From: Nocardia arthritidis
GTDB lineage: Bacteria; Actinomycetota; Actinomycetes; Mycobacteriales; Mycobacteriaceae
Assembly (NCBI RefSeq): GCF_011801145.1
Contig: NZ_CP046172.1
Coordinates: 8,060,001 to 8,124,000, forward strand
DNA: 64,000 nucleotides
Reading direction: 5' to 3'
Made by a program: the position numbers and the translations under genes
In this document: piece by piece, positions 36,696-38,191 of the stretch
How the letters are laid out: the number at the start of each line of letters is the position of its first letter
Position numbering within the stretch: position 1 is the first letter of the stretch
Notes under the pieces: generated by a model
Databases searched by the model: none
The model's input: only the letters and a program-made list of their open reading frames with translations
What the model was told of the DNA's origin: nothing

Positions 36696-36885
36696 GTCCT
36701 CGACACTAATCGCTTCGCCCGAAACCGCTGCCGCCCAAGACTTCTCCCCCGCGATCCGTACCACCGTCCAACTTTTCGGCGTTTCGTGCGACATTTGCTG
36801 GCGAGTCGCGAGAAACGCCGACGCTGACCGAGCAAACTTTTAGCATCGAACAGGTTTTCGACGATTTCGAATTACGTTGGGCCGC

Positions 36886-37749
36886 ATGGTTACTGCCAGA
36901 CACGAAGCGATGCACGAGCTATTCAAGCGGAACCCAGGCGTCTTCGCCCACGCGTTCCGAGCGCTGGGCCTCCCCTTCGACGACCCACTCGAAACGGACC
37001 TGCTCTCAACGGATCTGACGGAAACCGAGCCACTGGAGCGCCGAGCCGACACGATCTTGCGCATCCGTACCGCCAACAGCACGTTCCTGTTGTTGGTCGA
37101 GGCGCAGGGCAAAAAGAAGGCCGACAAGCCGGTGTCCTGGGCCTACTACCTGTCCTTCCTGCACGCGAAGTACGACTTACCGGTGGTGCTGCTGGTGGTC
37201 TGCCAGTGCCCGAAGGTCGCAAGCTGGGCACGAGGACCGTTGAAGCTCGGCCCACCCGGCTGGACAAGCCTCACCGTGGAGCCGCTGGCCCTCGGGCCGG
37301 ACAACGTCCCCGTCATTACCGACCTCGAAACAGCGATGGCCTATATACCGCTTGCCGCATTGTCGGTCATCACGCACGCTTACGAGACAGTGGTCGATGA
37401 GATAATGAAACCGGTGGCCACGGCCGTCCTGAGTCTCGAAGACCCCGACAAACAAATCACCATCGAACTTATCGAACGCGGCCTGGTCGGCACCCCGGCC
37501 CTCAACCTTTGGAGGCAACTCGTGTCCGTCGATCCGTCCTGGTTCCAGGGACCCACCGCCCAAGCTATACGCGAGGAGGAGGCGGTGCGCAGAACGCAAC
37601 AGCACATCCTCCGCATCCTGGAGGTTCGCGGCGTCACCACACCTGCCAACGATCGATCGAAGATATTGACCTGCCGAGACGGCAACCTGCTCGACAGGTG
37701 GCTCGAGCGCTCCGGCATTGCCAACACCATCTCCGACGTGTTCGCCTAG
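36886..37749 (+). CDS. Rpn-like PD-(D/E)XK nuclease with internal antitoxin-type start
   Basis: A 287-residue protein from ATG at 36886, possibly leaderless. A TTG at 36877 is in frame. The N-terminal two thirds fit the Rpn/YhgA-like nuclease fold: ERRADTILRI with Asp55 and LLLVEAQGKKKADK with Glu72 and Gln74 give the D...ExQ(K) site. SWAYYLSFLHAKYDLPVVLLVVCQ and LAALSVITHA are typical of actinobacterial members. At residue 213 a GTG follows a perfect GGAGG by six bases, in frame. It could make a separate 75-residue C-terminal protein. Family precedent: Rpn proteins are anti-phage toxins blocked by such intragenic products. Here this is inference. Confidence 0.72.
   Translation: MVTARHEAMHELFKRNPGVFAHAFRALGLPFDDPLETDLLSTDLTETEPLERRADTILRIRTANSTFLLLVEAQGKKKADKPVSWAYYLSFLHAKYDLPVVLLVVCQCPKVASWARGPLKLGPPGWTSLTVEPLALGPDNVPVITDLETAMAYIPLAALSVITHAYETVVDEIMKPVATAVLSLEDPDKQITIELIERGLVGTPALNLWRQLVSVDPSWFQGPTAQAIREEEAVRRTQQHILRILEVRGVTTPANDRSKILTCRDGNLLDRWLERSGIANTISDVFA
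37470..37577 (+). repeat. near-identical 108-base block, copy 1
   Basis: This block, inside the nuclease gene, recurs at 37762-37869 at an offset of 292 bases. I count about three mismatches. It covers IERGLVGTPALN, the GGAGG site, the GTG start and the first 18-19 codons of the small protein. Identity drops sharply after it. Confidence 0.85.
37522..37749 (+). CDS. putative intragenic small protein (RpnS-like antitoxin)
   Basis: A gene within a gene: GTG at 37522 in the frame of the Rpn-like nuclease, preceded by TTTGGAGGCAACTC. It gives 75 residues starting VSVDPSWFQGPTAQAIREEE, followed by a charged helix and a compact tail (QHILRILEVRG, DRSKILTCRD, LLDRWLERS, DVFA). The same ribosome site and start are preserved in the free-standing second copy at 37814. 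This argues that the signal is functional rather than incidental. Expected role by analogy: bind and restrain the full-length nuclease. Confidence 0.5.
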   Translation: MSVDPSWFQGPTAQAIREEEAVRRTQQHILRILEVRGVTTPANDRSKILTCRDGNLLDRWLERSGIANTISDVFA

Positions 37750-37761
37750 CATCGCGAACCC

Positions 37762-37869
37762 TATCGAACGCGGCCTGGTCGGCACCCCGGCCCTCAACCC
37801 TTGGAGGCAACTCGTGTCCGTCGATCCGTCCTGGTTCCAGGGACCCACCGCCCAAGCTATCCGCGAGGA
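37762..37869 (+). repeat. near-identical 108-base block, copy 2
   Basis: Second copy, beginning 13 bases after the nuclease stop codon. It is not in the nuclease frame. It carries the same ribosome binding site and GTG and leads into a different C-terminal half. This arrangement would allow homologous exchange of tails. Confidence 0.85.
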
Positions 37870-38059
37870 AGGCCGCAAGGAGGCAGCGGTGCAGCATATC
37901 CTCGAAAGCCTGGAGATTCGTGGCATCTCCATCTCAGCCGCCGACCGCTCCAAAGTCTCGGCCTGCCGAGATATTGACCTGCTCCGTGAGTGGTTCAGGC
38001 GCTCCATCACTGCCAAGACCGTCGACGACCTGTTCACCGGGATAAAGGAATCCAACTGA
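37814..38059 (+). CDS. free-standing Rpn C-terminal paralogue (solo antitoxin-like)
   Basis: An 81-residue protein from GTG at 37814 with a perfect GGAGG six bases upstream. The first 19 residues equal the nuclease internal product (VSVDPSWFQGPTAQAIREE). The rest (GRKEAAVQHILESLEIRGI, DRSKVSACRDIDLLREWF, TVDDLFTGIKESN) aligns without gaps at roughly 45 percent identity by hand count. The EEGRKEA segment looks like one unit of the short charged repeats that vary in this family. No nuclease half accompanies it, so it may be an orphan antitoxin, a spare tail, or decay. A long terminator follows. Confidence 0.6.
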   Translation: MSVDPSWFQGPTAQAIREEGRKEAAVQHILESLEIRGISISAADRSKVSACRDIDLLREWFRRSITAKTVDDLFTGIKESN

Positions 38060-38137: not shown

Positions 38138-38191
38138 CTTGCCGCCGAGCCGAATTCTGCTCATAACTGCCGAATTCAGCTCGGCGGCAAG
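38138..38191. terminator. strong bidirectional terminator hairpin
   Basis: A 20-base stem with one mismatch (left arm 38138-38157, right arm 38172-38191 with 14-base loop) contains CTTGCCGCCGAGC and GAATTC words. It is followed on the plus strand by CTTTT. It separates the Rpn locus from the convergent symporter operon, whose last stop codon starts four bases beyond. Confidence 0.85.

Follow-up and report, generated by a model that had tools for sequence, protein, structure and literature searches.

What does a nuclease-like gene gain from carrying a second translation start within its own coding sequence, and why should it be followed by a free-standing copy of the very segment that such a start would release? 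These questions arise from a locus in a window of 64,000 nucleotides of Nocardia arthritidis DNA, taken from a genome that consists of a single contig of 10.0 Mb. The original prediction described an Rpn-like nuclease, an intragenic start for a small protein and a free-standing extra RpnS-like unit, a description that is supported at sequence level.

The nuclease gene and its relatives

The gene at 36886..37749 (plus strand) begins with an ATG that lacks a Shine-Dalgarno site, ends with TAG and encodes a putative RpnL-like nuclease of 287 residues; the program-made list of open reading frames opens this frame three codons earlier, at a TTG. A protein of this length with a D...ExQ(K) pattern of the PD-(D/E)XK type had been predicted, and the anatomy matches base for base. 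The catalytic motif D55...E72-x-Q74 is encoded at 37048..37107 (plus strand), with E7 at 36904-36906. The alignment examined comprises 109 homologous loci from Nocardia and Streptomyces, which yield 91 distinct genes and, with the window gene, a set of 92. E7, E72 and Q74 are each present in 92/92 of these genes and D55 in 91/92; loss of the nuclease residues in close homologues, which the original prediction had named as a point that would speak against it, is not observed, as each residue is kept in at least 91 of the 92.

A comparison by hhalign with E. coli RpnA, RpnB, RpnC and RpnE is weak (probability 14%, E 0.002), and it pairs E7/D55/E72/Q74 with D11/D63/E82/Q84 of RpnA. According to the available part of PMC5350276, the substitutions D11A, D63A, E82A and Q84K each abolished RpnA activity. 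The structural model of the nuclease (pLDDT 85.6) finds endonuclease 2vld as its best Foldseek match, at an E-value of only 0.055, and several restriction-type nucleases are present among its other weak matches.

Pfam, NCBIfam and PADLOC assign no family to either window protein (Pfam and NCBIfam at E 1, including the Pfam families transposase_31/PF04754 and DUF4351), and a PDB sequence search returned nothing relevant. Among 21 homologues Pfam likewise gave no confident match, DUF4351 alone appearing in two of them with a best E of 0.12. The source names of some homologues are RpnC/YadD family, YhgA-like, DUF4351 or Rpn family. Because the curated profiles give no match, the family is called Rpn-like here and is not filed as a formal member. 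The protein database holds 482 homologues, and those named among the best 120 of the 482 are from Nocardia, Streptomyces and, in a few cases, other actinobacteria; of 150 Nocardia genomes searched, 99 contained matches, that of N. arthritidis itself included. A literature search of titles and the beginnings of abstracts, in which subscription journals were mostly not covered, found no actinobacterial Rpn system. As for the surroundings of the locus, a neighbouring acetyltransferase gene is present in 7/60 genomes, again including the genome of origin, and PADLOC matched a defence gene in 0/6 neighbours tested.

Signals within and ahead of the nuclease gene

As foreseen, a GGAGG (37511..37515, plus strand), formed by codons W209-R210 (TGG AGG), stands six bases ahead of codon 213, an in-frame GTG at 37522. 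Initiation there would produce an RpnS-like protein of 75 residues (37522..37749, plus strand). A residue at column 213 is present in 90/92 aligned genes, the two exceptions being L048 and L076, and the codon is conserved as a start codon, with ATG in 70/90 and GTG in 20/90; valine at this position is always encoded by GTG (20/20) and by no other Val codon.

As TGG for tryptophan supplies half of the Shine-Dalgarno motif, the GGAGG/GTG pair might be regarded as an unused by-product of the protein sequence Trp-Arg-x-Leu-Met/Val. The choice of codons, including the exclusive use of GTG for Val213, renders this highly improbable. Arginine in column 210 is encoded by the rare AGG in 80/90 genes, compared with 98/2,007 arginine codons elsewhere and at most six in each of 16 other Arg-rich columns; although the aligned sequences are related and the counts are not independent events, most other synonymous positions are far more variable. 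Of the columns in which 20 or more codons were scored, that of codon 210 carries the strongest synonymous bias in the gene. The combination of GGAGG with a start at codon 213 is found in 80/90 genes, against a mean of 5.9 and a largest value of 14 in 300 synonymous-codon randomisations, and five other in-frame ATG or GTG codons in the aligned genes have GGAGG at equal spacing.

A sister subfamily, sampled as 20 Nocardia loci and a paralogue from the N. arthritidis genome, has GGAG ahead of an in-frame ATG in 20/21 members. The paralogue is distant and, apart from the free-standing unit discussed below, the only one in this genome (two matches, one open frame). Situated at C1:8528918 onward, it is Rpn-like, with a long RAEG-type repeat helix and a GGAG...ATG internal start of its own.

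If the locus operates as an Rpn system, the long gene would give rise to an RpnL-like nuclease, and a restart at GTG 37522 would give rise to the C-terminal 75 residues alone. This RpnS-like product would pair with the nuclease's own C-terminal helix, thereby holding the nuclease inactive.

A candidate promoter for the small product also lies inside the gene. The extended -10 motif TGAGATAAT at 37398..37406 (plus strand), whose end is 116 nt from the internal GTG, is the putative promoter of a short transcript. Its conserved form, TGnnATAnT, occurs at this place in 81/90 aligned genes, with no other occurrence in 80,310 nt, whereas randomisation gives a mean of 1.5 and a largest value of 7. 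Codon 173 is the isoleucine codon ATA in 83/90 genes, and the third base of codon 171 is almost invariably T, irrespective of the residue encoded. The original prediction missed this motif, which as an internal promoter motif is well supported in the aligned subfamily.

Two points count against this interpretation: no -35 partner was found, a sigma-70 scan having detected no promoter, and in the sister subfamily the motif precedes the internal start in 1/21 members only. Function cannot be read from conservation alone, and TGnnATAnT could be a site bound by a protein or an RNA instead. This is unlikely, however, as the sequence fits an extended -10 element and E. coli rpn genes are depicted with an internal promoter (PMC10327210, legend of Fig. 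1), with dRNA-seq transcript starts cited inside all of them (PMC10327210). Taken as a promoter, the motif would drive a short mRNA from whose two good start sites the internal antitoxin and the free-standing copy would be made, so that antitoxin would normally be present in excess of toxin. Codons 194 and 197 (window positions 37465-37467 and 37474-37476), which lie between this motif and the inner GTG or ATG, strongly favour GAA over GAG.

A further element missed by the original prediction lies upstream of the nuclease gene. The LexA/SOS-box-like palindrome TCGAACAGGTTTTCGA at 36846..36861 (plus strand), 40 to 25 nt ahead of the nuclease ATG, has one mismatch to TCGAACNNNNGTTCGA. Across 40 Nocardia loci with 200 nt of upstream sequence, the genus being assigned by record title, a box with at most one mismatch is present in 19/40, window included, always at -36 to -40; with at most two mismatches the count is 30/40, and 29 of those lie at -36 to -51. 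The reversed pattern, used as a control, occurs in 0/40, and a Markov model gives 0.1% per locus for at most one mismatch and 1.9% for at most two. Among the 50 other loci, the box is found in none with at most one mismatch and in one with at most two. Within the N. arthritidis genome, 101 places lie within one mismatch, compared with 13 for the reversed control, and one-mismatch boxes are located upstream of the matched domains of its own lexA and recA. The LexA motif of S. venezuelae is presented as tCGAAC-N4-GNNCGa in the available part of PMC9380542, where the recA box lacks the G; the window box likewise lacks that G of the S. venezuelae consensus.

The LexA-type box is well supported as a feature of Nocardia loci, and LexA is predicted to bind at the window box. 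The nuclease's own start lacks a Shine-Dalgarno motif in 80/90 genes examined (window included). Repressed by LexA and without such a site, the nuclease mRNA would be produced chiefly in response to DNA damage or phage attack, which would shift the balance towards the nuclease. Apart from LexA, which scores better, the same genome encodes a further LexA-like DNA-binding domain at C1:4264584, in whose stretch no SOS box has fewer than three mismatches. In the Streptomyces loci no SOS box within one mismatch precedes the nuclease gene; in some of them (e.g., L088 and L080), GCATAT...GTATGCC-like sequences recur upstream of the nuclease and possibly represent the site of another regulator.

The free-standing unit and its length

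A repeat block is present twice on the plus strand. Copy 1 (37470..37577) spans the Shine-Dalgarno site, the GTG and the start of the RpnS helix, and copy 2 (37762..37869) begins 13 nt past the last stop base; the 108-base recurrence that had been predicted is thus real, with 2 mismatches (106/108 identical). The second copy supplies a GGAGG (37803..37807, plus strand) and a GTG, together at 37803-37816, to a free-standing second RpnS-like protein of 81 residues (37814..38059, plus strand), hereafter the solo, which agrees with the prediction of an 81-residue product under the same start signal. The solo had also been credited with a different C-terminal half. Different it is, but not unrelated: the half is homologous to the internal tail, though diverged, with 69% nucleotide identity over 147 nt past the linker. 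A 23-nt inverted repeat at 38138..38191 (no strand assigned), 78 nt past the solo stop, may mark the end of the transcript; the consensus scan for terminators, which found none, did not call it.

The AlphaFold2 model of the solo (pLDDT 90.1) contains helices at residues 5-9, 11-35, 42-50, 54-66 and 70-74. Foldseek and VIA-align gave weak helical matches only, and the three-helix bundle of RpnS (7TH0) was not among the matches reported, an absence that is no proof of different folds. An orthologue from another Nocardia, P0122, is 86% identical to the solo; the longest contigs of its source and of the source of the closest nuclease homologue, P0002, are equally long (1,342,075), the adjacency of the two genes being itself unseen. 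Beyond the linker, the solo tail is closest to P0122 (0.84), compared with 0.47 for its own neighbour, and the near-identical block therefore points to a recent exchange between the two copies, which would have covered no more than the start and the first part of the helix.

The survey for solo C-terminal copies beside Rpn-like genes that had been proposed with the original prediction was carried out in Nocardia and Streptomyces, and tail-like copies were found downstream in 28 of the 87 loci, that of the window among them, for which 450 nt or more of sequence past the gene could be inspected. A start codon lies near the expected place in 25 of these 28 copies, and L007, L009 and L050 are stretches without a nearby start. 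Some solo copies keep the TGGAGG...ATG/GTG signal and others overlap the parent's stop codon. At L053, L077, L049 and L106 the solos run on to 154, 168, 180 and 174 residues, respectively, and are possibly fused to another domain.

Such copies could be decaying relics of a partial duplication. The startless stretches are compatible with decay, as are the differences between the window solo and the internal tail, which are spread over the three codon positions (19, 12 and 14), and the dN/dS of this pair, which at 0.83 (0.77 past the block) is the highest of 22 own-pairs, although inflated by misaligned linker codons. Against this stand the intact reading frame of the window solo with its perfect start signal, its orthologue in another Nocardia, and the dN/dS of solos compared between loci, which is 0.11-0.66 in 16/16 pairs, hand-chosen and with ten of them within one group of five Streptomyces loci. 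As these values are below 1, the solos appear to be maintained by purifying selection. Decay is also at odds with a four-residue phase that is kept in every clean solo-tail pair, and the relic explanation is distinctly unlikely.

This phase recalls the four-residue repeats by which RpnS varies in its first helix (PMC10327210). The linker from the conserved aromatic residue 220 to Cys263 has a length of 3 mod 4 in 88 of 91 tails (90 and P0002) and of 2 mod 4 in three; in the sister subfamily, where the count ran from the Met to the Cys motif, lengths are spread over several phases of four, not one. Three of 25 solos, L049, L074 and L106, were left out as poorly alignable or fused (differing by -4, +4 and +85); L048 and L076, whose parent gene falls short of codon 213, were also set aside. 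In the 22 clean pairs of solo and tail all length differences are multiples of four, being zero in 7/22 and non-zero in 15/22. The window pair is equal, with 50 residues from the start to the conserved Cys in both, apparently through two different compensating 12-nt gaps relative to P0122 (short linkers, aligned by eye). With a pairing helix as long as the internal one, the solo could back up neutralisation. Selection on solos for a helix as long as that of the neighbour is unsupported, 7/22 matched pairs comparing with a shuffle mean of 5.1 (P 0.20); as equal lengths are not clearly above random pairing, the match in the window may be luck.

A similar pattern is seen in E. coli, where 5,371/5,426 genomes match the query somewhere. 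The lengths of rpnE and ypaA differ in 9/9 loci (seven distinct pairs), always by multiples of four, the loci having been picked for length diversity among 40 of 5,371 records and not as a random sample; at L118, for instance, reading of the sequences gives 27 versus 39. In 3/3 E. coli alleles for which no downstream copy is annotated (L171-L173), RpnE ends in a YpaA-type tail, as recombination across the repeat would leave it, and fusions of the RpnE-YpaA type are mentioned by Zhong et al. (PMC10327210). In RpnC, one four-residue repeat more abolished neutralisation, and the reverse (PMC10327210), so the adjacent nuclease may not be the target of most solos. No statement on a length mismatch between neighbours was found in the main text of PMC10327210.

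It is possible, if somewhat doubtful, that the solo does not act as a second antitoxin for its neighbour and is instead an off-length spare, directed as an antitoxin at foreign or ancestral RpnL variants or serving as a cassette by which recombination at the repeat would exchange the nuclease tail. The 15 unequal actinobacterial pairs suggest as much, as do the consistently unequal rpnE/ypaA pairs in the face of the strict length requirement of RpnC, and the three E. coli alleles with a transplanted tail; in the window, both frames are alike within the block, and a 292-nt deletion would swap the tails in frame. However, the lengths in the window match, as they do in seven pairs overall, the E. 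coli loci were chosen for diversity, and differences arise at about the rate of random pairing, with no sign of active selection for mismatch.

It is intriguing to extend this thought to a scheme in which solos are kept as a repertoire of off-length antitoxins, identity is encoded in the count of four-residue units and, in Nocardia, the SOS response frees the nuclease arm. The internal copy, encoded by the same DNA as its nuclease, would always match it, while a solo, often with another code, would either disarm the Rpn nucleases of other lineages or, through recombination across the repeat, recode the nuclease in one step. As a whole this scheme is rather unlikely to hold.

The proposed system and its known counterparts

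Comparison of the sequences leaves the anatomy, the internal start signal, the catalytic residues, the four-residue phase and the recurrence of solos on firm ground. It also supports the view that the locus is a variant of the Rpn kind, an Rpn-like toxin-antitoxin apparently wired to the SOS response, in which a second antitoxin-like unit is maintained; toxicity, neutralisation, release by SOS and phage defence are properties that we infer. The interpretation that probably accounts best for the locus is an Rpn-like toxin-antitoxin system in which an inner promoter would provide both the internal and the solo antitoxin, LexA would repress the nuclease, and the solo would be a maintained second antitoxin.

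The group that described the Rpn nucleases named their release from the built-in antitoxin as a key unresolved issue (PMC10327210). A LexA-type box on the nuclease combined with an inner promoter motif for the antitoxin would offer a testable trigger, in which DNA damage shifts the relative amounts of the two proteins that a single gene encodes. In addition, gene-within-gene antitoxins would be extended, with codon-level evidence, to an actinobacterial family missed by the profile and defence-gene libraries tried, and the question is raised why a second antitoxin is kept that is often of a length unfit for the neighbour.

Among known systems, the LexA regulon of S. venezuelae, as far as the available part of PMC9380542 describes it, resembles the present locus in placing a 16-nt palindrome near TCGAAC-N4-GTTCGA upstream of the gene. 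It differs in that no Rpn-like nuclease was found in that part, and in that LexA binding in Nocardia is a prediction.

The E. coli set comprises RpnA-E and RpnP2 and corresponds to COG5464 (Zhong et al. 2023, PMC10327210); there the gene-within-gene layout restrains a toxic nuclease directed against phage. Downstream second RpnS copies have already been reported there for rpnE (ypaA) and rpnC (PMC10327210), and as such they are not new. RefSeq marks the YpaA-type solo RpnS as incomplete, with a missing N-terminus, in L115-L122 and L174, although at L115-L122 the sequence shows a small open frame that is intact and preceded by a Shine-Dalgarno-like AAGGAG. RpnE/YpaA (RpnES) is similar in having a free-standing C-terminal copy downstream, 12 nt past the stop in E. 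coli, and in lengths that differ by multiples of four. The two are unlike in sequence, and K-12 RpnE is annotated as inactive, whereas the catalytic residues of the window protein are intact.

With E. coli RpnL/RpnS in general, the Nocardia family shares the nuclease residues, an in-frame internal start with a Shine-Dalgarno site, an internal promoter (in Nocardia a candidate motif), a small protein whose first helix varies by four-residue repeats, and downstream second RpnS copies. Unlike its E. coli counterparts, it has diverged beyond detection by the Pfam profiles tried and has a LexA-type box in most Nocardia members, and the tail of the window solo is nearer to the solo of another Nocardia than to its own neighbour, near-identity with the neighbour being restricted to the 108 nt around the start.
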